Of a stretch of 64,000 nt of DNA, positions 39,830 through 62,600 are shown in pieces. The translations under genes were made by a program, and so were the position numbers. Within the stretch, counting starts at the first letter, position 1. Each line of letters starts with the position of its first letter. The stretch spans positions 36,518,001 through 36,582,000 of the forward strand of contig OX485806.1 in the NCBI GenBank assembly GCA_950295325.1, in the 5' to 3' direction. The notes under the pieces were generated by a model. That model was not told where the DNA came from. It ran no database searches and saw only the letters and a program-made list of their open reading frames with translations. Origin of the DNA: Polytrichum commune (Eukaryota; Streptophyta; Polytrichopsida; Polytrichales; Polytrichaceae).

Positions 39830-39855
39830 CTCCCCGGTCATTGGTGTCGAAGGTG

Positions 39856-40352
39856 CCCTAACATTACCAAACCCAATGGAGGTAATTGCGGCCCACTTAC
39901 CGATGCCTGCCAGAGGCCTTGCAGGCCACCAGACCCTCCGCAGCCGGGACCCGCCCTTGCCCGCAACCCGCCCTCCGCCGGCCCGGGCCTCAGTGAAACC
40001 GGGATGCTGCCAGGCTGGCCGGGCAGGCGCCACTCACCCACCGAGGCCACGGTGGAGCGCCACGCTGTCAGCTCCCGACGCTCACTCACCTTCGAGGCCA
40101 CATTATGGGATGTGGCCCTTGTTACAGTCACATGGCATGTGCTTCCATCATGGCCAGATGGAAACCATGGCCGGCATCTCCCTCGTCCATTTGAACTTTT
40201 TGAGTCATGCATTTCAAACACCTCCTTCCAGCGATGGCGGCTCTTTCTTTGTAACCTGCAAGTGAGGATCTCTGCCGCAATGGAGTGCAACAGTTCGATT
40301 GCGACAATGAAGCAGGGATAGGGATTGCGGGTAGGGTTAGGATTAGGGGCGA
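39856..40352 (+). repeat. MULE left terminal inverted repeat
   Basis: The outer ~320 bp are GC-rich and almost identical to the right end in inverse orientation. The inner ~170 bp are diverged but collinear, including CTCTTTCTTTGTAACCTGCA, GGAGTGCAACA and GGTTAGGAT. Overlapping open frames on both strands are a by-product of GC content and are not genes. In MuDR the TIR contains the gene promoter; the same may hold here. Confidence 0.9.
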
Positions 40353-40769
40353 TTGCCGCACTACAATCTTTTGAAAACCGAAACCACACTTTGGATCGCA
40401 TCATTCTTTGGTTTCGGATTTCATCTTTCGGTGCAGCAGTCCATTCAACCCTCCCTCTTCATTCTACACAAACCCAATCAGTAGGTGCACTATAGTGTCC
40501 TCCACTTCCTGGTGGGTTTAGGGCCAGTAGGGAAGAAGTAAGGGAACAACACCGGCCCCTGCGCTCTTTCCACAAACAGTGCCGTGCGCTCTTCCCACAA
40601 GCTTTTGATACATATTTCCAGATCTGGTTTCACAGTTCTTCAGTTATTGCAGGGGTCGTATTTGAGCCGCAATTCGGTATCTTCCATAGAAGTATATAGA
40701 GGTAAAAACGGATTTCAGTCAGATTTGTCGCAAGTGTGTCAAAATGTGGGTTACAGATAAAGGGCTTCA
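40353..40769 (+). promoter_or_regulatory. MULE transposase upstream region
   Basis: About 420 bp separate the recognisable TIR from the transposase ATG. I see no ORF or strong core promoter motif, so transcription may start within the TIR as in MuDR; this is inference from architecture. Confidence 0.3.
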
Positions 40770-43607
40770 ATGGGTGACTGTATTTGTGACGCCGTTGTTG
40801 AGTCATCTACTGCATTGCATACCGACGCACAACTTCTTGCACATGAGCATGTTGCCTCCCAATGGCCACCTCGTATGCCGCGTGGCCTAGAGCCTTCCTA
40901 TGCGTCCACATACCAGGAGGTGCACAAGTCGGAGCTTGAGCGGCTCCGTGGTTTAGTTCAGACACCCTAGCAAGGCACTTTCATGCACAAGGATCTGACT
41001 TGGGCAATCCAGATCCGCGCGAAAGGGAGGAGGGACGGTCCCAGGACTCAAGGTCCAGTTTTGGTAGCTTACATACCATGGGTAAGAGTGCATGATTTCG
41101 TGAAAGGTGAGGAGGCTCGCATTGATGGACCGTGCAAGTTTGTTTGCCAGGGCACTCTGTCGAACCAACAGGGGAAACTTACGTCCCCCCGTTGGAACAG
41201 CTACTCCGTTGTCATGAGGTGTGTTTGAAACATGTATTTTGAATTCCATTGTCCATGATTTCATGTTACAGGTTTTAAAATGAACAGTTCCAAATTATAT
41301 GTAGATTGCACTCCCATCACATGTTTTTGACTCCATGCCCAACTACCAGGTATCATTGTCAGTACGGGCCAAATGACAATGCCTCGCACATACCAGTCGT
41401 TACGAAGGACATATACAAGAAGAAACAAAAACTTGACGTGAATGACAAATATGTTCCAAACGGAAAAGGTCACACAGGGCCACGCACATCAGCGAGGATG
41501 CGTGGATCATGTCAGCGAAGGGGGTGCCAGTGTGGATTTGTTGTGAAACAATTGTACCTGGAGCCCTCAGTTGCAGAAATAACATACCATCAGATGTTAC
41601 ATGTGAACCAAAATGGGATATTCTGCCATGGGTCTACAAAGATTGGCCATAAGAGCAGATTCTCCAGCCATCTGTCGGAGCAAGTCCGGGAATTCATCAT
41701 GTGTCATCTGCAGCTGGGTTTGTCTATCCCCCAAATAATGGGAAAACACAAAAAACGCTTCATGAAAGTGTGCGAGCGTGGGGAGGAGCTCACCAGAGAC
41801 CTCTTCATTTCGGAACAAGACATCCGTAACGTCGCTGGCCGCCTAGTAATAGAAACATACAAACGTGACAACAATGACGCAAAATCTGTGCGCATGTGGA
41901 TGCAGGAACATCCCGCTCTTGTGTTCTACTACAAGGAGTCAGGCGTACATGTTCGGGGAGCTATTACACGTAACAACATTCCATTCACAATTGACATCCA
42001 GATATCTTGGCAAGAGGAGATGATGTTGAAGCACGGGCACAAAAAAACCGTCTCCATTGACGCCACATTTGCAACTAATGAGAACAAGGTTTGTTGTTAC
42101 CATGGACCCGTTGTCAGCATGTTACACACCATGTCCATGCTAACTGGTTTGTTGCAACACATGTTGGGGAGTATTTCTGGAAAAACGTAACATGCCATTT
42201 TTTTGCTCCATTGCCGTTTCCATTGTACATCTTGATGGTGTTTGATGACTGGCTGAATGGAGTGCCCGTGGCGTATATTATTACTTCTAGTTCCAAGCAA
42301 CCTGATCTTGAGCCATGGATGAAGGCACTCACACAAAAGTTGGCCTCCCTGCAACATGATTAGGCGCCGAATGCGTTCATCACAGATTGTACGCAAGCTG
42401 AGATTGGAGGGCTATAATCCGTCTGGCCCGGAGTTAAAGTATTCATGTGCTTGTGGCATGTTCGTCGTGCATGGTTGAAGCAAGCGGTAGCCAAAATTAA
42501 AGACCATGCAATACGGGCTGCAATGCTAAAGGAATTGGGACGTATTATGTACGACACAAAGTGTCCCCGAGGAGATGCAATGGGGCCTTGGGCCATTCGC
42601 CAATTGAATGCTCTTAGAGATAGCATCCCCATTGTGAGCAATTTTTGGGCTTACTTTGACAAACAATGGGCATACAAGACTCATATGTGGGTTGTTGGAC
42701 ATCGTAACCTCCCATATGCTGGATAGGACACAAATGCAGCAATTGAAAGCTACCACTCTAACCTGAAAGTCACCTTGCCTGCATCAAAAGGTAGAGCGCA
42801 TGGACATCGCTTGGATTGGGTCATATACGAGTTGACAGAGGAAATTATCTCCCATTACTGGTACCAGACAATGAGGAAACAACACGGGTTCGTCCCAAAC
42901 TTGAAACAAGAACAATTTGTTATAAATGCAGTGCTGAAAGCGAGAGAAATTCCTGATAGTTGTGTCACTCTCCCCATTGCAGATGACGGACCAGCATTGG
43001 TAACATCGAAGAGCAATCCAACTAAATTGTACTCTGTCTACAGCCCAGATTATGAGTGGGGTTGTTGTGATTGCGTGTGGGCGCTAAAGGGGAACATATG
43101 TAAACATCAAATTAAACTCCTGATGATACTTCATCCCGAACTAGCTGAAGGAACAATTACACGTTACTGTGGGTCCCTTGCAGGCACATGTGAGGGAGGA
43201 CGTGCCAACATGTTGGATCCTATCGTTCATTTCCCAGAGGATTGTGAGGATACGGAACCATCTTCCACTCCCACAACGGGTCACCGTGGCACTAATGGCG
43301 AACGCATCGCCCCATATGGGGAGGATCTGGAAACCAGTGTCCGAAACCTAGCAACTGAATTCATGGATGCAGCCAGAGGCAATACTTTCTTGCTAAAACA
43401 TCTTCTAGCCAACTTCCACATCGTCCGGGGAAAACAACAAACCCTGTTGGCTCAAATGAAACATGGTTTGGTGGAGCCATCGCAAGTGGAACTGCATTTC
43501 AGCCCCAACGAGGGTGGTTGTAACATGTCTCTGAAGCGAAGGAAGGACTTCCTGGAGCGTCACAGGTAGACACAGGGTTGTCTATTGTGTCGTGACGGAG
43601 GGTAATC

Positions 43608-43659
43608 CCGGCATAATGTCGTGCCGTCACGACACGTATCCGTCACGACATTATGCCGG
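43608..43659. repeat. Subterminal 16 bp perfect hairpin of the hAT-like element
   Basis: CCGGCATAATGTCGTG (43608-43623) pairs perfectly with CACGACATTATGCCGG (43644-43659) around a 20 nt loop that itself carries CGTCACGACACG. It lies 35 bp inside the left end. Confidence 0.85.
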
Positions 43660-43799
43660 ATGCTGTCTTTATCCTGACGGACTTGAATTTTACCGATTTT
43701 TTTGTGTAATTACATTAACCCAATTCAGACACGTAGGATTTACAATGTCCACGTGTGATGACATGTCAGCAAAGTAAAGGTAAAGTGGGGAAAAATTTA

Positions 43800-44925
43800 C
43801 TAGAGCCCGTCCGCCCCCCCGTCCGCCCCTGTTCCCGACCCCGTCCGCTCCGTTCCCAACCCCGTACGCCCCGTTCCCCCCCCGTCCGCGCCCCGTTCCC
43901 CCCCGTCCGCCCCAGTTTTTTTTTTTTTTTCCCCCCCCCCCCTTCCCCGTCCGCCCCATTTAAAAAAAAAAAATTTCCCCCCCCTCCGTCCACCCCCGTT
44001 CCCGACCCCGTCCGCCCCATTCCCGACCCCGTCCGCCCCGTTCCCAACCCCGTCCGCCCCGTTCCCAACCCCGTCCGCCCCGTCCGCCCCGTTCCCAACC
44101 CCGTCCGCCCCGTCCGCCCCGTCCGCCCCGTCCGCCCCGTCCGCCCCGTCCGCGCCCCGTCCGCCCCATTCCCCCCCGTCCGCTCCCCCGTCCGCCCCAG
44201 TTTTTTTTTTTTTTTTTTCCCCCCCCCCCTTTCCCCGTCCGCCCCATTTTAAAAAAAAAATTTCCCCCCCCTCCGTCCGCTCCCATTCCCCCCCGTCCGC
44301 CCCTCCGTCCGCTCCCATTCCCCCCCGTCCGCCCCTCCGTCCGCTCCCCCGTCCGCCCCAGTTTTTTTTTTTTTTTTTTTTCGCCCCCCCCCCTTCCCCG
44401 TCCGCCCCATTTTTTTTAAAAAAATTTCCCCCCCCTCCGTCCGCTCCCGTTCCCCCCCGTCCGCCCCGTTCCCAACCCCGTCCGCCCCGTTCCCCCCCGT
44501 CCGCGCCCCGTTCCCCCCGTCCGCCCCTCCGTCCGCTCCCCCGTCCGCCCCAGTTTGTTTTTCCCCCCCCCCTTCCCCGTCCGCCCCATTTAAAAAATAA
44601 AATAAAATTTCCCCCCCCTCCGTCCGCTCCCGTTCCCCCCCGTCCGCCCCCGTTCCCGGCCCCATCCGCTCCGTTCCCCCCCCCTCCGTCCGCTCCCGTT
44701 CCCCCCCGTCCGCCCCCGTTCCCGGCCCCATCCGCTCCGTTCCCCCCCCCCCCGTCCGCTCCCGTTCCCCCCGTCCGCCCCCGTTCCCAACTCCCTCCGC
44801 TCCGTTCCCCCCCCCCCGTCCGCTCCGTTCCCGCCCCCGTTCCCGACCCCGTCCGCTCCGTTCCCCCCCCACCCCCGTCCGCCCCACCCTCGTCCCCCGT
44901 CCGCCCCACACCCTCCTTAGCCGTT
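43800..44925. repeat. C-rich (CCGTCCGCCCC) array with poly-T/poly-C/poly-A blocks
   Basis: The plus strand consists of CCCCGTCCGCCCC and CCCGTTCCC variants. A larger module recurs four times (near 43912, 44197, 44361 and 44551): a poly-T run, a poly-C run, TTCCCCGTCCGCCCCATTT, a poly-A run, then TTTCCCCCCC. The minus strand is therefore dense in G runs and could form G-quadruplexes. Frames up to 369 codons on the minus strand encode only Gly/Arg/Ala/Asp and Lys repeats and are not considered genes. Confidence 0.9.
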
Positions 44926-45737
44926 TTTTACTACTTTGATTTTAACAAAATGGTAAACAAAATGGCAAAATGATTTACCTGGCGCTAGGCATATCCACGA
45001 CCACGTCGGCGTTTTCTGCCACATAGGACTCCACCTTGGCAAGAAGGTAAGTATTTTACCCACCCTAGTCCGTTCCCCCTATGTTGACCCTACGTGGACC
45101 CTATTGTGTCGTGACGGAGGGGTCCGTCACGACACGACACGACATGACGGCACGACACCGTCATGACGTCGCGATAGACAACCCTGGGTAGACAGATAAT
45201 GTTCTCAGACTTGTTTTGTAACATGCACTTGTTACGAGCGAGGGGCCCATGTTACAGCACTCTGCGCATATGTGAGCCTTTCCCACGTGCGTCAAGAACT
45301 TCCCACATTACCTATATAAAGGGCGTGATCATCGTGGAGCATGTCTATGTTGTTTCACTCTCCCAATGGCGCCCCTTCACGTAGCCCGCATAAGTGCAGC
45401 TGTTTGGAAATGGTTTTGCAGATGCCCTGATGTCATTGGACCAGAGCACGACATTTCGAGCGATGAGGAGTTCTACACGCCGCCAACAACTCCTCCGCGC
45501 GTTGCCGATGAGCAGCCCACAACCAATGTTCCCGCCTGCACTGCTGACTCCATGTTCCACAAACTTCAGGTGCCTGGGCCACTATCACCAGTGCAAAGCG
45601 CCCGACTGAGGCGACGATATGCTCAGGCGGTCCGGCAGCTCATAACCCCACCTCTTGCCGTCACGCCTTCTCCACACAGCCCGTTGTTGGCATACCAACG
45701 ACCAATGAAGGTGTATAGGCCAAGTTGGGCTCCCTAG

Positions 45738-46267
45738 TTTGCATTTCAGGGACTCTATCATGTTACATTGCGAGCAACGTTTTGAAATGAATGATACAAT
45801 TTTGATTTTTGTGGGTATTCTTTCTAGTGTTCCATATGTAACGAGGGTCTTCCATTCTTTGCATTGCACATAGCATTTGTACCAACACTCCAATGTCGTT
45901 AACACAAAATTTGTTGGGCACGACTGTGTAAACTAGTAACATGTATCTAACTTGCACATGGTTAGCTAACCATAACTAGCATGTAACTAGCGCGTATCTA
46001 GCAGTGCATAGTCATAAACCAACACCAAAACCAATGCTAAACACATTGGACACATGTTACAGGTGTTTCACTTGTTACAGAGTTCGCAGTTCATCCCTGT
46101 GTGCACTACAACAGTTTTCAGTGACGACAATCATTCTCAGGCTGAATGGAATCAGTTCTTTGCGGTCTTCCTATCAGTATTGCAAACCCAAATAGGGTTT
46201 CCCTGCAAGTCCATGAATGCACTAACAATTATTCAACTTGTAACGTGTATGTCACATGTAATCTAGA
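45738..46267. other. Spacer between the two convergent MULE genes
   Basis: This spacer of 530 bp probably contains both 3' ends. It is notable for repeated CATGTTAC and its complement GTAACATG and close variants (for example near 45770, 45940, 45970, 46053, 46070 and 46240). No ORF is supported. Confidence 0.5.
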
Positions 46268-49200
46268 CTACAATGCATGTAACGGCTCCTCCATGAGCTC
46301 TGGACGACTGCCACTAGCATCCGTGACAGCCTCTTGTGCAATCAATGATACTTCTGCAAATGTGTCCACGGGCATTACTACAGCCGTGTCGACAACTGGA
46401 GATGACCCGACCACTTCAAGGTCCTCCCCCAAATTGCGAGTTGCGGCAAGCGAGGGCATCGGAGAAGGTGTCACCGACTCTAGCCAGTCCAAATCCAATT
46501 GACTTGGCAAGTCCTGCAACGATCTCTCTTCAGTCATAGGTATATGCCATGCACGTCCAACATTCACGCCTGGATCTGTGGAGGGGGAGTTCCGCGCGTT
46601 CTGTCCAGAATCAGAATCCACTAGGGGGTGCGCAACTTCCGCAGCTTGTGTTGTGCCGTGGGTGCAAACGTTGTCGGAGTTGCTGACATTCGTAACCTCG
46701 ACCTCACGAACATCCGCATCCACTTCGCGTTGGGCAGCTTTTGGAGGATGTACTTCCCACTGTTCACAACGTTCTTTGCTGACATTTTCTGCAACGGCCC
46801 TCATGTCATACAAAAACTCCGCTGGTTCCGGCACAGGGACCATAACATCTGTGAAACAATACACACATGGGCACTGTTATAATCGGCCCATCCTCCATGG
46901 ACTTGTTACGGACAATGCATCATGTTACGACTGAAAGGGCACAATGTTACCTGGGTTGGCAAGGACATATCCAATGTCCATGTCCTCTCAAATTTGCAAC
47001 CACCGTTCGTAACGTGCAAGTGAGGGTGCAGGCTCACTGGGAGGATCCCGAATCACCCAGGCTTGGATCCACATCTGCTTGTCATGGTTCGCCATATCTT
47101 GAACAACTCTAAACTGAGTTGCGTTGCACCAATGCTGCAACTCTGCCCACCATTGACGACTGGGATTTCTTAAATCCCTCCAAGCACCTTCTACATCAGC
47201 AACCCACTGTTGTTGCGAGTCCACTGGCCGGGCCCCCGCATACAACACGAAGCCTTCTTCTTTCAAGTACGACTTGGCCTGTTGCCACGTATGTGGGCCT
47301 TCTCCATCAGATTCTTGCGTGACCTTCAGCCATTTCGTGATGTTGGCTCCAGTGAGGCCATTCTGAGGGTGTAACAGTGCAGGCGGCAAGAGGCTGTAAT
47401 ACTTAAGAAAACATTGAAGCAACAGGACGGACCAAGGCACCGGGTACACCCGCTTCACCTGGGTTTGTTGCAATACGACCTCGTGCGCATCCCAACCCTC
47501 CACAGCTGAATGAGACAAAGAGTATGTGGGAATGAAGTTGACGCATAGAGGATTGGCAAGGAAAGATGAATAGAAAGGGTGCCATCCCCAAGTTGTTTGT
47601 AACAAGCGCGGGTAATGCTCGTCATCCCACTGTTTCATGGCTTTGGCAATGACTTCGCTAACCTTCTTTTGGCGGTTGTCCTCCCATTCCTTTCGTTCCT
47701 TCACCACATCCCGCATGACAAAGATGTGTTGAACGTAAGTGGTTAGAGCCTGAATCTCAACGTCCACAGTGGTGGCGGCATCATCTATCTTGTTGACGAC
47801 CCCCACCACAGCCTGCGTGATTGGCGGTGTAACTCCTGCTTTGGCCTGCATCCACAAATACAGGTGTTGTTACGACGACAGTAACATCCCTGAACACATG
47901 TTACGACTTCAACAACACCTATTTAACCATGTTACGTGACCAAACAGACAGTATATGCATAATATATGAAATTTCAAAGAATTTCAAAGAACTTCAAGGA
48001 GAGCACGGAGGCATGGAAAGAACATATAGTCATTACCTGATGTGATGCAGAATGAAATTTGCCGTATGCAGCAAACAACCTGTCCATGAAATTCCGTGCG
48101 GATTTCCATTCCTGAATCTGAGCCTCGAAGTCTTCATATTTGCCGCGCTCCAAATCAAACTGCAGCAACCCACAAGAAATCAAATAAAACAAGGGAGGGG
48201 TTGGATTGAGGGCCTCAAAGGTGGTTTTGGGACGTCCATTGTCACGGTCCCGCATGCTGCACTTGCGGCTCTGAGGTAGAATGCTTGACGCTCCTTTCGA
48301 AGGCCCAACGCCAAATCCTGCTCGTCTCTTGGGGTCTCAGGTGTAACAGGTGGCGGTGGCGGATCGGGCTGGACATGCGGATGCGAAGAGGGTGAAGCAG
48401 GTGGGGGCGGCGCAGGCTCTTCGTGCGGCACATCCACGGGAGGCGCCAAAATGGCAACCCTCTCTGGCAAGGGGTTGCGACTCTGTAGCGGTGTAACTCG
48501 AATGGGGTGGGGTGGAGGTACCGAAAAGCCACCAGCCGAGGGTTGTGGAGGTCGTGGATGGTTTGGTGGGCGTTGATCTCCACCAACACTTTGTTTTCGA
48601 TGCTTGGCTCTGAACTGTCGGCTCGAATAGGAGGGGCGGTGGCTGGCGTCCATTTCCGAATGCCTCCGCTTGTTCGGCCAGGGAGGGGGAGGGGGCGCTT
48701 GAACCTCATCGATGTCGTCATCGGGAATGTCCACATAAGCAGGAGGCACGGGCGGGGCAGATTTTTGCCTGGGAGGGACTGCCGCTTTGCTCCGTGCTTG
48801 CGGCCGCATTTGTTGAGGGCTAAAATCTGTGCTTCGTGCGGGTTGGGCCGCCAAGGTCTCCACAGTCGCCTCCATAAACCAACGCTCTTGCACGCGTGCT
48901 CCGGGGGGGGGGGTTTGTGACATTGAGGAGCTCATGGTTTAGACTAAACCAAACCTCTTTGTCTTGCAGGTTGTCCCACACATCACCGCGCTGCAAAGCC
49001 AATTTAAGATCCTTCCCCTGTTTTGTTGTCTTCAAATTTGGATACACATGGAGTTGCCACTTTAACCCTCTAGAGTTCACTGGTCCACAGGGGCAGCCTC
49101 CACACCGGTGATCTGTCAGCCGCAGTTTACTTGGAAAGGATCCTCTGCAATACAGGCACACCCAATCGTCCTTGGCCTTGTGTTCATTCCGAATGCGGTT

Positions 49201-49305
49201 GCGAGTACACTCCAACTTCAACTCGATGTAGACATGGCGCCTAACGTGTTGCTCCACCCACCCCGCCAAATCCTTGTTCACGTAGTAGACCACCTCGTCG
49301 TCCAT
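46268..49305 (-). pseudogene. Second MULE gene, unknown function, four exons
   Basis: I do not recognise this gene. On the minus strand the exons are 49305-48246, 48159-48037, 47845-46951 and 46848-46268; all three introns (86, 191 and 102 bp) are GT-AG and in phase. The product is about 885 residues. Residues ~45-75 hold a zinc-finger-like CLYC...DHRCGGC pattern. Pro-rich, Arg-containing sequence follows (from PPPGARVQERW to PPPPPVTPETPRDEQ). Exon 2 is helical (FDLERGKYEDFEAQIQEW). Exon 3 is Trp-rich, with TTWGWHPFYSSFL and SRQWWAELQHW. Exon 4 is acidic. Two faults exist: an 11-G run (48903-48913) with one base too many for the frame, and a TGA at 46988-46990 near the end of exon 3. Its position, convergent with the transposase, matches mudrB of MuDR, but I see no sequence similarity to state. 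A captured host gene is the alternative. Confidence 0.75.
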
Positions 49306-49769
49306 ATCCTACAAACGGCACTGTGAGTCTATGGCCAGGAACAAGGCACTCAGAGGCCCAAAGAAGAATGAGGAAGGATTAGGGTTTGCGGCACATGGAA
49401 TATGGCGCAAGATGCCCTGATGCGGGTCGCCGAAGCCCTCCAAAGGAGGGCATGCACCAACCGCCATACTCAGACACTGTCTGCAAGCACATTCACCTAC
49501 ACACCCTAAACCCTAATGTCTGAAACTAGATGAATTGAACTGAAGTGAGTAGAACACATGGACCTCAAAAACCAGAAACCCCAAAACATAAGAGAAGTAT
49601 GTGGCCTCCCATGAGTGAGGAGGAAACCGGGAAAAAAAAGGCCGCGAATCCAGCGGAATTTGCTTCCATGTTACAAGCGTGCACGATTGTGAGATGGAAC
49701 ACACCTGTTGTAACCACCTTGTGCGGTGTGGTCGTGCGACGGCCAAGCGCGTTCGCCAAAATGCAGGGG
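49306..49769 (-). promoter_or_regulatory. Upstream region of the second MULE gene, with telobox
   Basis: CCCTAAACCCTAA at 49504-49516 is a telobox, about 200 bp before the ATG of the second gene. GGATTAGGGTTTG near 49377 is a related copy. CATGTTAC also occurs near 49668. The Ty3/gypsy element inserted about 460 bp upstream of the ATG and may separate the gene from its distal promoter and the right TIR. Confidence 0.45.
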
Positions 49770-50470
49770 TGTGAGCCCAAAAGGGTGCCCACATTTAGTC
49801 TTAGACCCTTGAAACGTTAGTTGATGCACTTTGAAGTAGCATGTTACTTCACAAAAATATAAAAAGAGTGAAATGTTAGTCTTAGAAGTACCATGTTGTA
49901 AGAGGCTAGGATGTGAGTTGTTATTGTGTTTTTACCTTCGGAAGGATTTGAGTGAATGAGGATAGGTAAGGAGAACTTGGATTGAGTAGTTAGTGAGTAG
50001 GCTAGTACAAATGGATGGAGACAACCAAAGTGACTCAAGAGGCAAGTGCATTCGAATTGGGATGAATGGAGGATCACATGGAGCGCACAAGTGGACCACC
50101 TCATCATGGCCACTTAATGGGGAAGGCCCAAGGAAGAATGCAAGGTGGAGGATAAGCAAATTCTCAAAGCACCAATCAAATCACGAGTTAAGCATCGTGG
50201 TTTGAATTAAGTGGTGAGCGACGATTTGGGAAAGTAAGGGGAGAAAGTTATGGCGGCGGAAAGCGAAGGAGGCTAAGTTTGGGTTGAAGCATCCCAAGTT
50301 TGGTAAAGTGTGGTAGGTAGAAAGCCAAGGCTAGTTAAATGTTCGAATTAGGATCCTTGTTGATCATTTGAGGGAGGAAGGCTTAGAAGATAGGATTGGC
50401 GCCTACTAAGTAGGAGGAAATCTCAAGGGCTTATCGTGAGCCTTGAGGGTGCTCACCCCCTCAAGCTTAC

Positions 50471-51737: not shown

Positions 51738-52949
51738 TAATTGGTGCGTCCGCCGGGAGCGAAGCGGAAGGTAGTTACAAGACTTGGAGGCGACTAGGAG
51801 ACTTGGAGGCAACTAGGAAAAATTGGAGACACAAACTTGAGAGAAGGGAAGGAGCACCCGAAACTCGGTAAGTATTCTCTCTTTGGGTTACATTTGAATT
51901 CATTGTATTTCAACTATTCCTTGGAATGAATTGCATTGTCAATTACGCAAATTCATTTTTGAGGAAGGAGCGCGGCGAAGGTACGTCCTCAACCTTTTTG
52001 GAGATTTGCTAAGAACTTAAAAGGAACCTATAACCGAGTAGCTCATTAAAACATTAGAGGGTAAATTCACCTTAGGACATTGAACTTTGACACTCACCTC
52101 GGGGTGAGTCTCAAAGTTTTGGGAGTTGTCATTTCATGCTCTAGATTAAATTAATATTTCACAAAGTTTATGGTGTTGTTACATTGAGTCACGATTGAGG
52201 GGAGTGCTAACTCACAGGGGGATGCGATTGCTCAAGGTATGTTTATTTCTTCAAAGTGAACTCATTAACTAATTAAGGAATGCCTTTTATACTCGTGATT
52301 GTTGTTATCCGTTGTAGAGGGTAATTCCCGAATTGTGGATGGTGTGAGAAGTTAAAGGGTGAAGCCTCGATTTTTAACATAATCTACTCGGAAGGTCACC
52401 CCCTCACAATCGGTATTGTGGTGAGTGTTAATTTGCGGGAAGGTGCGGAGGTGATGCTCCGACTTAACCAAAAAATTAACATGAACATGCCTATCCCCTA
52501 TTGGGATTCTTTCACCTAAGTGGGCTTGCAGGTTCTTTTCCTCACCTCCTAAAAAAATTATAACCACACCAAGACAAGTGAAAATATTAAGAGGGGAATT
52601 GCTAGGATTATGTGTGGTCAAGTGAGGGTCGATCGATTCTTATGGAATGCAAGGTAGGACTCGCTCACAAAAACCAAGTTTGATAGTAGGACTAGAGAAA
52701 TCTACTTGAAAGAGGCGGTCCTCTAAAATCAGTGATAGATTAGAACAAGATAATGTTAAAATAGAGAGTTGTTTGAACGTCGAACCTAGGACTAGGTCAA
52801 TTCTAGACACCTTAGAACTTGAAGCTCAACTTGAAGAGGAGATCACTCCCTCCAAATTGAGTGGTGAAACTTCTTCGGAAAATTACACACTTAGAAAAGA
52901 ATTCCCGGTAGAAGTTGATAGGGGATTGTTGAATAGTTCACCGGTCACC
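51738..52949 (+). other. Retrotransposon leader with candidate primer-binding site
   Basis: Four bases after the LTR, TGGTGCGTCCGCCGGGAG (51742-51759) starts with the TGG expected to pair with a tRNA CCA end; an acceptor stem of GCGTCCG type is implied, but I cannot name the tRNA. The rest of the ~1.2 kb leader has no supported ORF. Confidence 0.6.
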
Positions 52950-55900
52950 ATGGCCGAGGAACGGGGGATGGATCCACCACCCATACCCCCAATTCCGCCC
53001 ATACCTCCTATACCTCCAATAGACCCATTGGTTAGGCCAAGAGGCCTACCAATTGTGGTTCCACAAAATTTAGCGGCGATGGATATGCCATCTCATCTCC
53101 CTAAATTTTATGGGACCAAGGATGAGGACCCCTCTCGGCACATGGAACGGTATATCGAACGGTTGGCTAGCTTCCTCATAACCGACCCGGGTTATTGGTT
53201 AGTGTGGTTTCCTACCACTCTAGAGGGGGAAGCCTATGAATGGTATCGGGATCATGCCGAGGGACATTTTAGGGGATGGGAACAATTACAAAGGGAGTTT
53301 CTTAACGAATTTAGGCCGGAAGTGGGTCAAAGTACCGCATTAAGGGCATTGTCGTCATTGAAGCAAGGAAGGGAGGAAGAAATTTCGGCTTACATTAGGA
53401 GGTTTGATTTAGTGTGCACTAGATTTGTGGGTACCATGCACAACGACGACACGCTAAAGCAATTTTTCATTCAAGGGTTTTTTAAGTCCGGAACTATTAG
53501 GGGTGTTCTAGAAAGGAATCCCTTGACCTTGGCGGATGCCAAGCGTGCGGCTAGAGATATTGAAAACTTGGATAAAGATCACGAAAGGCTATGGAGAAGG
53601 GAGGATGAATTGATCCCACAATTCATCCCCATACGCCCTAGGGTGGTAGCGGTAGAACCCGCTAAGTATGAGAACCAAATTCCATATGCCATTGTGGACA
53701 CCGGTCCCCGACCTTTAGCGGTTAGGGAACCGGCACCTCTTTTGGCACTACCGGCCCCTAGAACGGATCCACACTTGGAGGAGGTTGAGAGAAGACTAGG
53801 TGCTAGCCAACTAGGATTCCAAGAGGCTATGATAAAACAAATGCAAAGCCTCACGGATCAAATGTCATTAATGATCCGGAGTCAACAACCGGGGCCTCCA
53901 CCCCCGGTTGAGTCGGGTAGGCATTCTTCCGGATTATGGTGTGTCCAATGTGGCCAACCGGGCCACACGCGTCAATTTTGTAGAAGTGGACAAAACCGTG
54001 ACCAAAGAGGAAACGGTAACCCACCTCAACAAAATCAACGAGGTCAAGCGCCACCTCACTATGGAAATGGAAGCAATAGAGGACCACAACCTAGAGGGCA
54101 AGGTGGCCAAAATTTAGAGAAGAAGGAATTTCATCCCTTTTGTGGAAGGTGGCACGCTCAAGGACAATGTTGGTCCGAAGGTCAAGAGTTTAATTGTAGC
54201 AATTGTGGAGGAAGTCATCCCTCGGATACGTGTCGCCAACCGGACAAAATAATTAATGTCCCTTACCCGGTGGCTAATCCACAACAACAAGCAAGGGATA
54301 ATATGCGAGGTGCTAGGCCACAAGGAGTACCGGCCAATGAACTTAGGCCACCTAACTTATACTATGACCATAGTAATGCTAGGCAAACTTTTCATCCACC
54401 GGCGGGCTTGCAAACTACAACCGGTTACATTCCAATACAAAATAGACAAGGAGTTCCACCTAATGGTAGTAACGGGAGACAAGCGCCTCCAACGGATCCG
54501 GGACCATCTAACTCCCAAGATGTTAGGTTCATGGATGGAGTGTTGGAGGCCACATGTGATGACATGCTTCCTCTCCCAACGAGAATTGGAGAGGAGCAAA
54601 GTCAATGGCCTCCTCACACCAATGCTATTACATATGAGTTAGTGAAGGGTAAGGGTGTGGTTGAAGAAGCACCTGCACTAGCGGTAACTACTAGGGCTAG
54701 GAGAGGGGATGCCCCGTTGGAGGTAGGAATAGGAGAGCAAGGAAATTACTCTTCGGATGAAGAGATTAATCTCTCCGAGTTGGATAGGGTAGCTAGAAGA
54801 GCTACTAAGGATGTGGAGAGGGAAAATATAATTTTACAAGATAGGGAGAGGACTAATGCGGTACATGACTTGGATAATAGCGATGTGGGTGAATGGGAAG
54901 GACCGGGGGTTCCCGTAGACGAATTCGACGTAGTGGGTAATTCTAAGGTGGAAAGATCTACCGGGTACGACTTGTGGGCGGACCTTAGTACACTCAAGGC
55001 GGATATTACTTTCGGCCAACTATTGGAAATTTCACCCACGGCAAGGAAAACATTAAAGGAGGGAATGCCGGTACACAAGAGGATGAGGAAGGTGAAAGCT
55101 AAAATAGCCGCTAGGATCCAATCACAAGGTGGAAGAGACGTGAAAGCTATAGAAATAGAAGTTGTTATAGTAGATAAGGTGGTTCCTAATGTGCTAGTCG
55201 ACGGAGGGAGTAGTCTAAATATACTACCGGAGGATACTATGAAAAAATTGGGACTTGGACTCACGGGGCCTTCACCTTTGGTCATAAATATGGCAAATCA
55301 AAGTTCGACTACGCCTTTGGGGATGATCAAGGATTGTAGAATGACTACGGGAGGTGAGGAGTACTTGGTCACCTTCCATGTCATTAAAATGCACTCCAAC
55401 AAGGACACCTTCCCCATTTTGCTAGGTAGGCCTTGGTTGCGGATGGCGAATGCTATGGTCAATTGGGGTGGACCTAAACCATCCATCACTTATGGTCCGG
55501 AGGGTAATAGGGTCATAGTGTCCATTGGTTCATTAGAAGGATGGATGAAGAAGGAGATGTATTTGCCATTGGAGAAGGAAATTGATGACTTAAACGAGAA
55601 TGAGATTGGCAAGGCATTGGTGGGAGTCGTCCATCCCGAAGGTCAAAGGGTTGTTATAGATTCGGGCTCGGGAAGTCTAGATCCTAATTTTTACAATTAT
55701 GGGGATAATGGGGATTATGCCCAATGGCTAAGGGAGTACCCCGAGTCCGAGGTTGATGTAATGGTTACATTTCACCAAGTAGGCTTAGGGAGTGAATTTC
55801 CTAGTGTTAGTTTAGGAGAGGGCTCATTGTTGGAGCCATGTGAGGTGCTCACCGAGGAAGAGTGGGTTAGCGGTGGGTTAACACCTTGGGTAGATGACGT

Positions 55901-56348
55901 GGAAGAGGGTGAGGTTAGTTTAATTCATGTAGATGGGACTCAAGAGGAGGATGTGATTATTGAGTCATCGAAATTGGAGGAGCCTTTACATTTCAAGACC
56001 ACGTCTACGGGGATAGTTGTAGGTCAAGATGTCAAAGATTACCCCAATGTGCCTTCCGATTGGTATCGGAACAAAGAGGAACAAGCACATGTGTCGGAAG
56101 CGGATTGGCGGTACGTGGATGTGAAATTAAAGAATGGAAAAACCCGACAAATGAAGATGGGCTCCAAATTGGGGGAGAAAGAGGTTAGGGAGTATAGCAA
56201 TTTGGTGGATGAGTTTAGTGATACTTTTGCATGGTCCTACGATGAGCTTAAGGGAATTCCTAGGGAAATGGTAGAGCACCGGATTCCTTTAATTCCGGGG
56301 GCGAGGCCAATTAGACAAAAGGAGAGGAGGATGAATCCTCAATTGTAA
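52950..56348 (+). CDS. Ty3/gypsy Gag-protease and start of reverse transcriptase
   Basis: This 1,132-residue open frame is the first part of the polyprotein. Gag occupies the N-terminal half. It starts at MAEERGMDPP with a repeated Pro-Ile stretch, then a retrotransposon Gag core with WYRDHAEGHFRGWEQLQREF. A CCHC zinc knuckle follows (C331, C334, H339, C344), with further Cys/His pairs behind it. The aspartic protease active site is D751 in VLVDGGSSLNILP, with a downstream ILLGRPWLR flap-side motif near residue 825. The frame stays open upstream to 52773 without an ATG; ATG 52950 is preferred because of its CACCATGG context. The frame ends at TAA 56346-56348, inside the N-terminal part of reverse transcriptase (after IPREMVEHRIPL), not at a normal Gag/Pol border. 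Confidence 0.93.
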   Translation: MAEERGMDPPPIPPIPPIPPIPPIDPLVRPRGLPIVVPQNLAAMDMPSHLPKFYGTKDEDPSRHMERYIERLASFLITDPGYWLVWFPTTLEGEAYEWYRDHAEGHFRGWEQLQREFLNEFRPEVGQSTALRALSSLKQGREEEISAYIRRFDLVCTRFVGTMHNDDTLKQFFIQGFFKSGTIRGVLERNPLTLADAKRAARDIENLDKDHERLWRREDELIPQFIPIRPRVVAVEPAKYENQIPYAIVDTGPRPLAVREPAPLLALPAPRTDPHLEEVERRLGASQLGFQEAMIKQMQSLTDQMSLMIRSQQPGPPPPVESGRHSSGLWCVQCGQPGHTRQFCRSGQNRDQRGNGNPPQQNQRGQAPPHYGNGSNRGPQPRGQGGQNLEKKEFHPFCGRWHAQGQCWSEGQEFNCSNCGGSHPSDTCRQPDKIINVPYPVANPQQQARDNMRGARPQGVPANELRPPNLYYDHSNARQTFHPPAGLQTTTGYIPIQNRQGVPPNGSNGRQAPPTDPGPSNSQDVRFMDGVLEATCDDMLPLPTRIGEEQSQWPPHTNAITYELVKGKGVVEEAPALAVTTRARRGDAPLEVGIGEQGNYSSDEEINLSELDRVARRATKDVERENIILQDRERTNAVHDLDNSDVGEWEGPGVPVDEFDVVGNSKVERSTGYDLWADLSTLKADITFGQLLEISPTARKTLKEGMPVHKRMRKVKAKIAARIQSQGGRDVKAIEIEVVIVDKVVPNVLVDGGSSLNILPEDTMKKLGLGLTGPSPLVINMANQSSTTPLGMIKDCRMTTGGEEYLVTFHVIKMHSNKDTFPILLGRPWLRMANAMVNWGGPKPSITYGPEGNRVIVSIGSLEGWMKKEMYLPLEKEIDDLNENEIGKALVGVVHPEGQRVVIDSGSGSLDPNFYNYGDNGDYAQWLREYPESEVDVMVTFHQVGLGSEFPSVSLGEGSLLEPCEVLTEEEWVSGGLTPWVDDVEEGEVSLIHVDGTQEEDVIIESSKLEEPLHFKTTSTGIVVGQDVKDYPNVPSDWYRNKEEQAHVSEADWRYVDVKLKNGKTRQMKMGSKLGEKEVREYSNLVDEFSDTFAWSYDELKGIPREMVEHRIPLIPGARPIRQKERRMNPQL

Positions 56349-58886
56349 TTGTTGGTGAAAGCGGAATTGGAAAGGTTATTGAAGGCCGGGTTTATCAAGC
56401 CGGTGGAAATCACGGATTGGGTTTCTCCTATGGTCTTAGTAAAGAAAAAAAATGGGAAATTAAGGGTTTGTGTCGACTATAGGAAATTGAATTCGTGCAC
56501 ACAAAAGGATCACTTCCCCTTACCTTTTATCACCTTGTTGCTTGAGGAGGTTGGAGGTCATTCGCGATATACCTTTATGGATGGGTATGCGGGTTATAAT
56601 CAAATTTCCATAGCCCTCCAAGATATCCATAAAACGGCTTTTACTACACCTTGGGGTACTTTTGTGTGGGTAGTGATGCCATTTGGGTTATGTAATGCCC
56701 CGGCTACTTTCCAACGATTAGTAATGTATATCTTCACCGACTTGTTGTTCAAATCCATGACCGTCTTTGTGGACGATTTTAGCACACAAAGTAATGTGGA
56801 TGATCACCTACATTGTGTTAGGGAGGCATTGGTTAGGTGTAGGAAGATGAGGTTAGCATTGAACCCGGATAAGACATTTTTGGGAGTGAATAAGGGAGTG
56901 TTGTTGGGTTATGTTGTTAGTGAGAAAGGTAGAGAACCCGATCCGGATAAGATTGCGGCCATAAGCGACTTGGCAACTCCAACCAATTCCAAGGGGATCT
57001 CTAAGTTGTTAGGACATGCGGGATGGTACCGGGAACTTATTCCTAATTTTTCAAAGATAGCGGTGCCCATTACCCATTTGCTAAAAAAGGATGTCAAATT
57101 CGAGTGGACGGATGCTTGTCAAAAAGCCTTTGAGGAATTGCGGGATAGGTTGAGCACCTATCCGGTGTTGATACCACCCAATTGGGGTAAACCTTTTCAC
57201 GTCTATTGTGATGCTAGTAATGTGGCAATAGGGAGTGCGCTTTGTCAAGCAACGGGAGAAAAAGAGAAGGATCAACCTATAGCTTATGCGAGTAAGCAAT
57301 TGACCCCCGCCGAAAGAAACTACTCTACAACGGAGAGGGAGTGCCTAGCCATGGTGTTTTCCGTTAAAAAGTTTAGGCATTACCTCATGTGCAACCCGGT
57401 TGTATTTTTTGTTGACCACATGGCTATCAAGTATCTAATTAACAAGGCGGAGTTAAGTGGTAGGTTAGCTAGGTGGGTTTTGTTATTAGAAGAATTCGAC
57501 TACACGGTGGAATATAAACCGGGTCGTATGCATTTACAAGCGGACCACTTGTCTAGGTTGTCGGAGGAGATAGGAAAAAATCCGGTAAATGATATGTTAG
57601 TAGATGATAGCCTCTTTGTGGTCACTTCTACACCGGAGTGGTATGCGGGCATAGTGGAATTTCTAACAACCCACAAGTTGCCCAAAGAGTGGACAAAAGA
57701 AGAGAGAAGGAAGGTGAGGGTAAATAGTAGGCAATTTGTTGTAGTGGGCCATAGGTTGTTTAGAAGGGGGTCCGATGGTATTTTACGACGATGCGTGTCA
57801 AAAACGGAGGTTGAAGCGATTTTAATCGCTTGCCACGATAGCGCTTGCGGCGGTCACTTCTCGGGTCAACTCACCGGGCAAAAAATACTTAGAGCGGGCT
57901 ACTTTTGGCCTACACTATTTAAGGACGCCCATGACTATGTAAGGAAATGCGACGCTTGCCAACGGTATGCCCGAGACGACCTTAGAATGGAGATGCCTTT
58001 ACATGTATCATTACCCTTAATTCCTTTCGAAAAATGGGGCATCGACTATGTGGGTGAGGTCCATCCCCAATCTTCAAAAGGAATGAAATATATTGTGGTG
58101 GCAACCGAGTACCTCACCAAGTGGGCGGAAGCCAAAGCGGTGAAGACCAACACGGCGGAACACGCGGCAACATTTATGTACGAAAACATAATTTCGCGGT
58201 TCGGGGTGCCGAAGATCCTAGTAAGCGATAGGGGTACTCACTTTTTGAATGACTTGATTCGAGAGATGACAGAGAAATTTAAAATTGATCACCGGAAGAC
58301 TACTCCCTACCACCCACAAACCAATGGACAAACGGAAAGGGTTAACAGAATTTTGGTGAGTATACTACGCAAGACGGTTATAGACTCGAAGCGGGATTGG
58401 GATACGAAACTAACGGCGGCACTTTGGGCATACCGTACAACCTATAAGGTAACTACGCGTGCTACACCATTTTCCTTAGTCTATGGTCTTGAAGCGACAC
58501 TACCAATCGAATATGAAGTCGAGTCACTTAGGGTGGCCGTGAGTACGAGACTTACCGAAAGTCAATCCTTACGAAATCGACTAACCGATTTGGAAGCACT
58601 TGACGAAGGGAGGAGAATGGCGGCTCAACAAATTGAGGCAATCCAAAGAAGGAGAAAGATTACTTTCGACAAACGACATAAGAGAAGGGCCCTAACACCG
58701 GGAATGATGGTCATGATTCAAGACGCACGAAAGCTTGAATTTCCGGCGAAATTCAATGCGGTATGGTTAGGACCTTACCTTGTCTATGAGGTCTTTCCTA
58801 ATAAATCAATTCAATTGGAAACGTTGAATGGTGAGCTCTTTCCTACCCGTACATCGGGAAGTAGATGTAAGGAGTACCGAGCTTGA
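56349..58886 (+). CDS. Ty3/gypsy reverse transcriptase, RNase H, integrase
   Basis: This frame continues directly after the TAA with no frame change and has no ATG at its start, so it needs stop readthrough or is silenced by the mutation. Numbering from 56349: reverse transcriptase has LRVCVDYRKLN and the active site FVDDF (D142, D143). RNase H has HVYCDAS with D288 and later TTERECLA. Integrase has the HHCC zinc region around CHDSACGGH and CDACQRYA. Its DDE triad is D566 (GIDYVG), D627 (VSDRGTHF) and E663 (TERVNR), with 35 residues between the last two. A GPY-type module (WLGPYLVYEV) follows and there is no chromodomain. All catalytic residues are intact. The frame ends 61 bp before the 3' LTR. 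Confidence 0.95.
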   Translation: MLVKAELERLLKAGFIKPVEITDWVSPMVLVKKKNGKLRVCVDYRKLNSCTQKDHFPLPFITLLLEEVGGHSRYTFMDGYAGYNQISIALQDIHKTAFTTPWGTFVWVVMPFGLCNAPATFQRLVMYIFTDLLFKSMTVFVDDFSTQSNVDDHLHCVREALVRCRKMRLALNPDKTFLGVNKGVLLGYVVSEKGREPDPDKIAAISDLATPTNSKGISKLLGHAGWYRELIPNFSKIAVPITHLLKKDVKFEWTDACQKAFEELRDRLSTYPVLIPPNWGKPFHVYCDASNVAIGSALCQATGEKEKDQPIAYASKQLTPAERNYSTTERECLAMVFSVKKFRHYLMCNPVVFFVDHMAIKYLINKAELSGRLARWVLLLEEFDYTVEYKPGRMHLQADHLSRLSEEIGKNPVNDMLVDDSLFVVTSTPEWYAGIVEFLTTHKLPKEWTKEERRKVRVNSRQFVVVGHRLFRRGSDGILRRCVSKTEVEAILIACHDSACGGHFSGQLTGQKILRAGYFWPTLFKDAHDYVRKCDACQRYARDDLRMEMPLHVSLPLIPFEKWGIDYVGEVHPQSSKGMKYIVVATEYLTKWAEAKAVKTNTAEHAATFMYENIISRFGVPKILVSDRGTHFLNDLIREMTEKFKIDHRKTTPYHPQTNGQTERVNRILVSILRKTVIDSKRDWDTKLTAALWAYRTTYKVTTRATPFSLVYGLEATLPIEYEVESLRVAVSTRLTESQSLRNRLTDLEALDEGRRMAAQQIEAIQRRRKITFDKRHKRRALTPGMMVMIQDARKLEFPAKFNAVWLGPYLVYEVFPNKSIQLETLNGELFPTRTSGSRCKEYRA

Positions 58887-58927
58887 CTAGGCAACTTACC
58901 CTTGGAGCAAGAGATGTTTGGATTCAT

Positions 58928-58947
58928 CCCCCGATGGTCGCCAATTA
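58928..58947 (-). other. Inverted primer-binding-site-like sequence before the 3' LTR
   Basis: On the minus strand, directly inside the 3' LTR, the sequence reads TAATTGGCGACCATCGGGGG. The 5' LTR is followed by TAATTGGTGCGTCCGCCGGG. Both share TAATTGG and a related GC-rich tail. A purine-rich tract for plus-strand priming, normally here, is absent; the nearest purine-rich stretch (58904-58915) is over 30 bp away. Confidence 0.7.
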
Positions 58948-60915
58948 TGTGAGCCCAAAAGGGTGCCCACATTTAGTCTTAGACCCTTGAAACGTTAGTT
59001 GATGCACTTTGAAGTAGCATGTTACTTCACAAAAATATAAAAAGAGTGAAATGTTAGTCTTAGAAGTACCATGTTGTAAGAGGCTAGGATGTGAGTTGTT
59101 ATTGTGTTTTTACCTTCGGAAGGATTTGAGTGAATGAGGATAGGTAAGGAGAACTTGGATTGAGTAGTTAGTGAGTAGGCTAGTACAAATGGATGGAGAC
59201 AACCAAAGTGACTCAAGAGGCAAGTGCATTCGAATTGGGATGAATGGAGGATCACATGGAGCGCACAAGTGGACCACCTCATCATGGCCACTTAATGGGG
59301 AAGGCCCAAGGAAGAATGCAAGGTGGAGGATAAGCAAATTCTCAAAGCACCAATCAAATCACGAGTTAAGCATCGTGGTTTGAATTAAGTGGTGAGCGAC
59401 GATTTGGGAAAGTAAGGGGAGAAAGTTATGGCGGCGGAAAGCGAAGGAGGCTAAGTTTGGGTTGAAGCATCCCAAGTTTGGTAAAGTGTGGTAGGTAGAA
59501 AGCCAAGGCTAGTTAAATGTTCGAATTAGGATCCTTGTTGATCATTTGAGGGAGGAAGGCTTAGAAGATAGGATTGGCGCCTACTAAGTAGGAGGAAATC
59601 TCAAGGGCTTATCGTGAGCCTTGAGGGTGCTCACCCCCTCAAGCTTACTATATAATCCCTCATTCTTCCCTCACTCATCCTCTCTTTCCTTTGTGCTCCA
59701 AGGCACCCCACGAGTTATAAGTGTGGGTGTGGGAAGCCATATTGGAGCACATGTGTGTGCTTAGTTTTTAGTTTGAGAGCCAAGGCTTGTTAGCCTTGAA
59801 GAGGGCTTGACCTCTTGGTAGAATTAGTGTTGACGTGAAGGATTTTAAAGTTAATTCATGATTCCAATTTGTGGTACTTAAAGTTCATGTTTTGAATACA
59901 CGTGGTTGCAAGTTCCATGTTTAAGAGTTGAGCACTTGATGTTGTGATGAGTGCAAAAATATACTTGTGTGGATTAGTTAGTCTTAGTGAAGTTAGGAAA
60001 TTCTCTCTCCCCCTCTCCTCTCTAGGATTTTAGGATTTTAGGATTAGAGAAGAATTGTGTGATTAGAAAGGGGTTGTTAGTAGAATTAGGGAAATTAGGT
60101 AGGAAGATTAGTTAAGGGCTTGAATAATTAGTGAGGTAGTTGGGGATTACAACTACAAAGTTGTGGGTTCATGAAGGAGCTGGGTTTGTTTAGTTAGAAA
60201 GTAAAGAGCTGGGTTTATGAAGGACCTGGGTTTGTTTAGTTAGAAGCTAAGGAGCTGGGTTCATGAAGGAGCTGGGTTTATGAAGGAGCTGGGTTTGTTT
60301 AGTTAGAAAGTAAAGAGCTGGGTTTATGAAGGACCTGGGTTTGTTTAGTTAGAAGCTAAGGAGCTGGGTTCATGAAGGAGCTGGGTTTATGAAGGAGCTG
60401 GGTTTGTTTAGTTAGAAGCTAAGAAGCTGGGTTTATGAAGGACCTGGGTTCATGAAGGACCTGGGTTTGTTTAGTTAGAAGCTAAGGAGCTGGGTTTATG
60501 AAGGAGCTAGGTTTATGTAATTAGAAAGTAAAGAGATGGGTTCATGAAGGAGCTTAGTAGATAGCCTACCTAATTAGCTCATAGACAAGTAGTTAGTTAC
60601 ATTATGCTAGTTAGTGTTATGTGTGGCTTTCACAAGTAAATGTATTTGAGATTGACTATAGAGAATAGTGTTTTTTTTAACACTTGCATCCTCTCTTTAA
60701 AAATAAACCACGTGCACAACTTAATGGAGAATGTGGAGCACTCTCGCGATGGCAAGACAAAGGAAGCAAAGACCAAAGTTAAATCCAAGACCACTTGAAG
60801 GGTGAACCTTGTACTATGGACTCATCCAAGTCCAAATCCAATACCGCGGAGGAATGTGAGCCCAAACCCACTACTCGGACTACGGACGCTTAAGGGTGGG
60901 GGGTTTGGCCTCACA
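58948..60915 (+). repeat. Ty3/gypsy 3' LTR
   Basis: A 1,968 bp direct copy of the 5' LTR, the same length and with no difference seen by eye. It ends CTCACA and is followed by the AGGGG target duplication. Confidence 0.96.
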
Positions 60916-60920
60916 AGGGG

Positions 60921-62081
60921 CGTTGGTGAAGTACTAGAATTGAAACCCTCGCCCTGTTGAGATAGAGTACAGAAATTACAAGACAGGAATTACAAGTTAG
61001 GAATTACAAGTCAGGAATTACAACCCTTATTGCCCAAATTCAGCCATGAACCCTAGTGAAACCCAAATTCAGAGTTCTCATGAAACCGAAACCCTCGTGA
61101 AACCCAAATTCAGACTTCCCATGAAACCCTCATGAAACCCAAACCCTCGTGGAACCCAAATTTAGACTTCTAAGCAATTTAACCCTAAACCAAGTAGGAA
61201 GTGGACTGTAGGGCAAGTAAGGATTATGCTACAATAAAAGGGGAGGGAAGGTATCAAAGACTATTGCAAAAAATGATGAAACATGCAATCAGGCTTTAGT
61301 CATCGAATGTTGTAAACCAGGCAGGAAGTGGACTGTGGTGTAAGCCAGGATTATGTTACAATAAAATAGGAGGCAAGGTTCAGAAGAGTAATCCAAAGAA
61401 TGATGAAACATGAAAACAGGAAGTGAAGTGTGGTGCAAGTAAGGATTATGTCACAATAAATGAGGGAAGGTTGAGAAGACTATTGCAAAGAATGATAAAA
61501 AAATATAATGACCGTTTACCATATCATTACTCTAAACCAGCAGGAAGTAGACAAGAGTGTAGTGCAAAGAGGTGATTAGGTTACAATAAAAGAGGAGGGA
61601 AGATTGAATGACTGTTGCAAAGAATTAGCCTAAACCCACAAAGAGGGAGACATGATTACCCTAAACCCACACAAAATGAGACAAAACTGTAGTGCAACTA
61701 ATCATTATGTTACAGTAAAAAAGGAGGGAACCATGAATGGAATGTTGCAATGAATTACCCTAAAACGAAGCCACCCCTTAGCAAATCAATGTTTCAGGCC
61801 CATCAGAAGAGATTGTAGTGCGGCAACAATGGAAGTTCTAAGGCAAATCGTTATGTTACAATCATTCAGAAACTATGACTTCAATAGACAGTTGCAAGAA
61901 ATACCCTAAAGAATCCATCATTGTTGCCTTCTTAATAGTTCGTGGGAATGATCCAAGGTGTGCAAGAAACAATTAGCTTGCAATCGATCAGAAAAGATGT
62001 TGTATTGGACATTTGCAAACAAACATGAAGAGGTCAGTCACTTACCTTGACCCTAAACCAACATGTTGGAAAGGAAGCTGA
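60921..62081. repeat. MULE right subterminal region with tandem repeats
   Basis: First come about four AGGAATTACAAGTC units (60970-61023), then CATGAAACCC and CCCAAATTCAGA phrases (61045-61170). Then about six diverged ~110 bp units (61183-61900) carry GGAAGTGGACTGTGGTG, 'ggattatgttacaataaaa', 'ggagggaaggtt' and 'tgcaaagaatgatgaaac'. No ORF is supported. Subterminal repeats of this kind often hold transposase-binding sites. Confidence 0.75.
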
Positions 62082-62591
62082 TGATCCTAACCCTGCCCGC
62101 AATCCCGCGCGTGCATCATTCTTGCAATCGAAGTGTTGCACTCCACTGCGGCAAAGAAAGCAGCGTGCAGGTTACAAAGAAAGAGCAGCCATCACTGCAT
62201 GGAGGCAACAGAAACCGTAAACCCTAAACGTTGAAATGGAAGAGGGAGATCCCTTCACCGAGGTGGGAAGATGCCGGCCATGGTTTCCATCTGGCCATGA
62301 TGGAAGCACATGCCATGTGACTGTAACAAGGCCACATCCCATGATGTGGCCTCGAAGGTGAGTGAGCGCCGGGAGCTGACAGCGTGGCGCTCCACTGTGG
62401 CCTCGGTGGGTGAGTGGCGCCTGCCCGGCCAGCCTGGCAGCATCCCGGTTTCACTGAGGCCCGGGCCGGCGGAGGGCGGGTTGCGGGCAAGGGCGGGTCC
62501 CGGCTGCGGAGGGTCTAGTGGCCTGCAAGGCCTCTGGCAGGCATCGGTAAGTGGGCCGCAATTACCTCCATTGGGTTTGGTAATGTTAGGG
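62082..62591 (-). repeat. MULE right terminal inverted repeat
   Basis: Inverse copy of 39856-40352, ending GGTAATGTTAGGG and followed by the 9 bp duplication TCGAAGGTG. It has an extra ~45 bp near 62222-62268 relative to the left end. Confidence 0.9.
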
Positions 62592-62600
62592 TCGAAGGTG

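Follow-up and report, generated by a model that had tools for sequence, protein, structure and literature searches.

The stretch of DNA analysed here (the window) comprises 64,000 nucleotides of Polytrichum commune (assembly GCA_950295325.1, contig OX485806.1, positions 36,518,001 to 36,582,000 of the forward strand) and harbours a Mutator-like element (MULE) at 39856-62591. The element spans 22.7 kb, of which 9963 bp remain once two later insertions are removed, and it carries a transposase gene on the plus strand (40770-43569) and a partner gene on the minus strand (49305 or 49467 to 46268) in convergent orientation. Both genes of this copy are broken; it is a single Mutator-like transposon that is now inactive. 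An inverted-repeat search and alignment delimited the terminal inverted repeats (TIRs), ~490-510 bp long, to 39856-40343 on the left (plus strand) and 62084-62591 on the right (minus strand). Their outer 330 bp are 98% alike (arms 39856-40117/62330-62591, 262 nt, 98%; 40117-40182/62266-62331, 66 nt, 98%), and the best inner stretch reaches ~82% (40221-40314/62112-62205, 94 nt, 82%). Directly outside both ends lies a perfect 9-bp target site duplication (TSD), TCGAAGGTG, at 39847-39855 and 62592-62600; by arithmetic two given 9-mers agree by chance at ~4e-6. Long TIRs, a TSD of ~9 bp and a MULE-type transposase domain are thus all present, as expected of the Mutator superfamily. The same 9-mer also occurs inside both TIRs (40087-40095 and 62352-62360). 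By arithmetic a given 9-mer turns up in one 330-bp TIR with a chance of ~0.25%. This may be coincidence, or TIR-like sequence may be a preferred target.

The later insertions are well delimited. A Ty3-type retrotransposon (49770-60915, plus strand) has identical long terminal repeats (LTRs) of 1968 bp at 49770-51737 and 58948-60915, a 5-bp TSD (AGGGG) and open reading frames (ORFs) in which Pfam recognises gag, protease, reverse transcriptase, RNase H and integrase domains. Because its LTRs are identical, this insertion is considered recent. A hAT-like insertion (43573-45186, plus strand) is bounded by an 8-bp TSD, GGTAGACA, and no transposase was seen in it; a C-rich minisatellite (CCCCGTCCG units) makes up most of its length, along with poly-T and poly-A stretches. 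Stops and frame breaks have inactivated the window copy, which was also struck by these two elements. Derivation of the TIRs from two separate elements, with the genes brought together by accident, was also considered in view of the 22.7 kb span. The two recognisable insertions explain this length, and the likeness of the TIRs together with the perfect TSD at both ends makes such an origin exceedingly improbable. The initial annotation of this locus had described inverted repeats of about 500 bp, the 9-bp duplication at the outer ends, an unrelated gene facing a MULE transposase, and Ty3 and hAT insertions within a single two-gene MULE, and in all these respects it was borne out.

The transposase gene consists of three plus-strand exons, the first two at 40770-41218 (with one in-frame stop) and 41350-42088. 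The third (42217-43569) holds most of the MULE domain PF10551, a SWIM-like motif and three further in-frame stops, giving four in the joined gene, and the acceptor preceding it is not AG. The joined transposase matches PF10551 in Pfam (E 2.5e-13) and can be aligned over almost its full length with annotated plant relatives (from residues 50-596 to 63-844, the latter with an Adiantum protein). The CxC...CxH pattern of a SWIM-like motif is visible by eye, and a Pfam SWIM match is absent in the window protein; among seven more distant relatives scanned by Pfam, SWIM was found in four, two above and two just under the cut-off. PF03108 gave no Pfam match in the transposase at E up to 1.

The closest relatives of the transposase are 43 of the 73 matches, at 74-87% identity, and PF10551 is precomputed for 25 of these 43. 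A tree was built from the window protein and 57 of 63 matches (those longer than 330 aa), and 37 of its 58 rows, the window included, form a clade with support 100/100. The sister group of this clade contains the sole annotated close kin, from the moss Ceratodon (41% over 552 residues). Farther out, with placements on long branches, stand Adiantum, Riccia, the entry Gb_01440, which we take to be Ginkgo, and conserved angiosperm SWIM proteins. The earlier suggestion of a lineage of its own is supported, and a non-seed-plant host, also suggested there, is plausible in view of the moss Ceratodon as nearest annotated relative. Three angiosperm SWIM proteins of 690 aa (P0176-P0178) align over much of the transposase and, judged by eye, have apparently lost the catalytic residues; they likely represent a domesticated MULE of a related lineage.

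The partner gene, likewise of three exons, encodes a protein of ~900 aa, and both of its introns are GT-AG. Exon 1 (48037-49467, minus strand, with a start at 49305 or 49467) encodes a C2HC-like zinc finger and a Pro-rich linker. Relatives read this exon openly, which reveals two frame breaks in the window copy, plus one stop if the upstream start is used; one of the breaks lies in a homopolymer of 11 C and may instead reflect a sequencing error. The segment 48160-48245 was first taken as an intron and is now regarded as coding with a frame break, since relatives P0184-P0186 read through it as coding. Exon 2 (46951-47845, minus strand, one in-frame stop) encodes a conserved all-helical domain, recognised from homologues and a structure model, and exon 3 (46268-46848, minus strand) is indicated by two relatives, P0078 and P0061, that read on into it.

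The partner proteins appear to constitute an undescribed family. The exon 2 domain yielded 110 matches at 50-85% identity, an alignment of 77 sequences, the window among them, has 21 invariant columns, and the long-helix domain was modelled with a pLDDT of 85.6. At the N-terminus the pattern C-x2-C-x3-F-x5-L-x2-H-x4-C does not vary among the three relatives found, and the window protein has it as well; we read it as a probable C2HC-type finger, for which the Pfam family zf-C2H2_4 gave E 0.31. No convincing Pfam match was obtained for the partner: the window protein matches MATH_2 under the cut-off (E 0.0098 and 0.059), the best family over the 77 members including the window is HSA (E 0.0066, in eight), and the three exon 1 relatives have no Pfam match at E 0.1. 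Nor was there a convincing match to a solved structure. In the viral-contig and genome-contig collections no locus related to the partner was confirmed, and the same is true of the transposase. A literature search covering titles and the beginnings of abstracts, with few subscription journals, found no description of the partner family, no MULE motif array outside Arabidopsis and no account of a non-seed-plant MULE with two genes.

The two genes appear to be associated beyond the window. Sizes of contigs were compared between the match lists of both genes, using the longest contig per protein cluster, for 113 partner rows (all 110 exon 2 matches and P0184-P0186) and 61 of the 73 transposase rows; the 12 rows left out (P0170, P0171 and P0174-P0183) are named chromosomes or lack contigs. 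Five contig sizes above 5 kb occur in both lists (12429, 9820, 9792, 7741 and 5577, belonging to P0129, P0121, P0115, P0117 and P0136), compared with 0.11 such agreements expected from near misses (Poisson 1.4e-7). The method was checked on a single partner gene, two exons of which (P0186 and P0078) likewise share one contig size, 7901. A further agreement at 2181 bases (P0132/P0104) was rejected as too short for both genes in the window layout, 0.84 such matches being expected over all lengths. The initial annotation had called for other copies linking the two genes, and such copies are supported by the five contigs and the agreeing trees described below, the linkage itself being indirect.

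Trees of the two genes, each built for six pairs (five contigs plus the window), share one unrooted topology, with local support of at least 0.94 at every fork. The distance matrices of the two genes correlate at 0.82, a value reached by one of 720 label permutations, the observed one. The larger transposase tree and a larger partner tree (the window and 47 of the 110 matches) agree with this topology, and the P0117-P0129 fork is weak there (83/20). The five linked copies are distributed over four distinct, well-supported portions of the transposase clade of 37 rows. These observations strongly indicate that partner and transposase have been passed on jointly within a clade of elements, and their common descent seems to extend over most of that clade, if not all; a convergent arrangement on each of the five contigs is inferred. 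Among the six pairs the partner evolves faster, with 53-82% identity to the window compared with 79-86% for the transposase.

Because of the equal-sized contigs and the agreeing trees, the partner is regarded as an old companion of the transposase and not as a recent capture. Gene capture is common in MULEs, as reported in PMC6446971 and PMC9168764, and the partner could in principle be a captured fragment of a host gene carried as a passenger, as in Pack-MULEs. The partner ORFs are, however, conserved in many relatives, the gene is tied to the transposase by the five contigs and diverges along with it, and a search for full-length relatives gave four matches within its length and word limits, none from a named organism. 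A passenger origin is accordingly very improbable.

The non-coding DNA of the element is packed with a short motif, CATGTTACR. In 3528 bp of internal non-coding DNA, TGTTAC or its complement occurs 22 times as against 2.7 expected, and its score of 25.7 compares with a maximum of 8.5 for 6-mers in 60 dinucleotide shuffles. Scores of 9.4-17.3, likewise above that maximum, are reached by words that overlap the motif and by several telo-box-like words. The core GTTAC reaches 7.9 per kb in the internal non-coding DNA, 4.1 in the TIRs, 2.9 in the coding parts, 1.5 in the flanks (41 kb), 1.2 in the Ty3 element and 0 in the hAT-like insertion (Fisher p 1.6e-3 for internal non-coding versus coding DNA and 1e-10 versus the flanks). 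When all 48 GTTAC sites of the element are aligned the consensus is C(A/T)TGTTAC(A/G), in contexts that are otherwise unlike. By word counts the motif is densest in the introns (41219-41349, 42089-42216, 46849-46950 and 47846-48036), and the intergenic region (45187-46267) is dense in it as well. In the right subterminal region a degenerate tandem array of six units of ~127 bp lies at 61195-61928 on the plus strand, with unit starts at 61195, 61322, 61417, 61546, 61676 and 61802 and hence one spacing of 95; ATGTTAC is found in three of the six units and a one-mismatch form in the other three, at offsets of 31, 31, 31, 32, 31 and 51. The telo-box-like words CCCTAAA and AAACCC are also over-represented in the non-coding DNA of the element, visibly so in the right subterminal region (61036-61760).

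The motif was also sought in the tails of relatives, that is, where predicted ORFs run past exon ends into supposed introns. Translated readings of GTAACATG number 15 in 66 non-redundant tails versus 2.5 expected, and 34 in all 95 tails versus 4.9 expected, the set having been reduced from 96 by exclusion of P0127, which contained exon sequence. None of 1679 letter permutations of GTAACATG scores as high in the tails as GTAACATG itself. These counts strongly indicate that the same motif resides in the introns of the relatives.

Such an enrichment could also be a by-product of host splicing, promoter or telomere-type elements, or of old repeats copied within the element. This would fit the parallel enrichment of telo-box-like words, the position of one motif over the splice donor of the partner gene (46945) and the share of the motif count that comes from the 127-bp array. 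A by-product is nevertheless unlikely: the common core stands in 48 differing contexts, the motif is found on either strand, with each of the four introns as well as the intergenic region represented, no excess is seen in the flanks or the Ty3 element, and the supposed intron tails of relatives show the motif too.

A comparable arrangement is known from VANDAL21 (Hiun) of Arabidopsis, in which, according to PMC5735166, the protein VANC21 binds YAGTATTAY, a motif that is dense in the non-coding DNA of the element and frequently arranged in tandem repeats; VANC causes methylation to be lost throughout the elements. The likeness lies in an extra gene in a MULE and in a short motif concentrated in introns, other non-coding DNA and tandem repeats. 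The two systems differ in that the window partner has no match to DUF1985 or DUF287 (in Pfam, and among the best 25 families over 77 members), and in that the motif is another one and of mixed orientation in the window element. Because the arrangement resembles that of VANDAL21 and VANC21, the partner is proposed as a motif-binding helper, and we hold it slightly more probable than not that the element is an inactive two-gene MULE whose partner recognises the motif and is VANC-like in action. The transposase would cut and paste the element at its TIRs, and the partner, with its C2HC-like finger and long-helix domain, would act as a helper with sequence specificity for the motif array, either maintaining expression of the element or assembling it for transposition. 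It would work against silencing like the VANC proteins of VANDAL elements without being a recognisable relative of them. Of the two roles, maintenance of expression seems the most likely one for the partner, and a part in integration less likely.

Several observations weigh against such a helper. The motif binder may be the transposase or a host protein, and the partner has neither a VANC domain in Pfam nor a clear fold match. The coding parts are mildly enriched in GTTAC too (p 0.02 versus the flanks), and the telo-box-like words AAACCC, GAAACC, AACCCT and ACCCTA as well as GTTTCA exceed the shuffle maximum. Outside the right array the orientation of the motif is mixed, and just a single site falls in the left subterminal region. 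The tails of the relatives are intronic by position only and share common ancestry, so that their counts are not independent events; one of the six readings, the expected [SPTA]CY, was not enriched when tested singly (0 versus 0.57), and VTC had been noticed in some tails before its testing. Linkage in the relatives rests on equal contig sizes and not on contig sequence, and the placement of one linked copy, P0121, as the deepest branch is weakly supported (83/43). Finally, each TIR has the motif at two places. This last point favours a partner that helps transposition by integration or end pairing, as has been said of MURB in maize, with no role in silencing, the motif array then serving assembly of the partner or the transposase on the element. 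Such a role would also suit the convergent plan shared with MuDR, the long joint descent with the transposase and the description of MURB in PMC9168764 as crucial for insertion. The higher density of GTTAC in internal non-coding DNA than in the TIRs, with the introns densest, fits control of silencing better than recognition of ends, and a purely transpositional role is possible but not the one we would expect.

The reason for the retention of a second gene in some MULEs has been debated since mudrB, and with a partner family and a defined candidate target motif at hand the function of the partner becomes directly testable. If the motif is the target of the partner, MULEs acquired control by motif arrays on two occasions or more, which would point to host silencing, not the chemistry of transposition, as what selects for partner genes. 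We would suggest only tentatively that a MULE lineage outside flowering plants evolved its own anti-silencing system independently of the VANDALs, consisting of a C2HC-finger partner and a matching CATGTTACR array in introns, spacer and subterminal tandem repeats, the two having stayed associated for as long as the clade has existed.

The initial annotation had characterised the element as MuDR-like. The overall plan of long TIRs, a 9-bp TSD and two convergent genes is indeed that of maize MuDR, and the resemblance ends where domains are compared in Pfam: the window transposase lacks a match to PF03108, a domain that MURA carries, and the partner has no PMD match. With ~900 aa and a zinc-finger-like motif the partner is also set apart from MURB, of ~207 aa, by description and not by sequence comparison, and a motif array is a further difference of the window element.

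The accompanying view that partners of the mudrB type are rarely reported outside Zea did not stand. According to Table 1 of PMC6446971, most members of several plant groups on the MUDR side have a PMD gene, which is often antisense, and additional ORFs are reported there in several MULEs. The land-plant groups it covers are all flowering plants. The MUDR and MUDRAVI2 groups with such a gene, hosted by flowering plants apart from one sub-group in Phytophthora, resemble the window element in having an antisense second gene in a SWIM-type MULE, and differ from it in their hosts and in that no PMD match was found in the window partner or among the best 25 families over 77 partner proteins. In the Abermu elements, according to PMC9168764, an opposite-strand ORFR occurs in a number of grasses and a third ORF on the same strand in barley (Hvu_Abermu: ORF1, ORF2, ORFR). 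Abermu has TIRs of 138-145 bp, a 9-bp TSD and a length of 8.2 kb; it shares with the window element long TIRs, the 9-bp TSD, a similar size (8.2 versus 10.0 kb) and a partner on the opposite strand whose evolution outpaces that of the transposase. It is described there from flowering plants only and was compared by description and not by sequence, and its ORFR has no similarity between distant grasses, whereas the window partner is recognisable over the clade. An antisense partner in a MULE was therefore already known as such; the partner family and the motif array appear to be new here. A small same-strand ORF as in Abermu is perhaps present in the window too, at 45366-45737 (plus strand, 123 aa) between the two genes, predicted from the ORF and a TATA-like box at 45313 (53 bp upstream) and with no match in Pfam.

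Elsewhere in the window, 16199-20428 contains a Plant_tran transposase (PF04827) that occupies two neighbouring ORFs of the minus strand, together with a plus-strand NAM-associated ORF; we read these as the probable remains of a PIF/Harbinger-type element. This element is flanked by two auxin-responsive SAUR-type genes (PF02519) at 12726-13262 on the plus strand and 22176-22766 on the minus strand.

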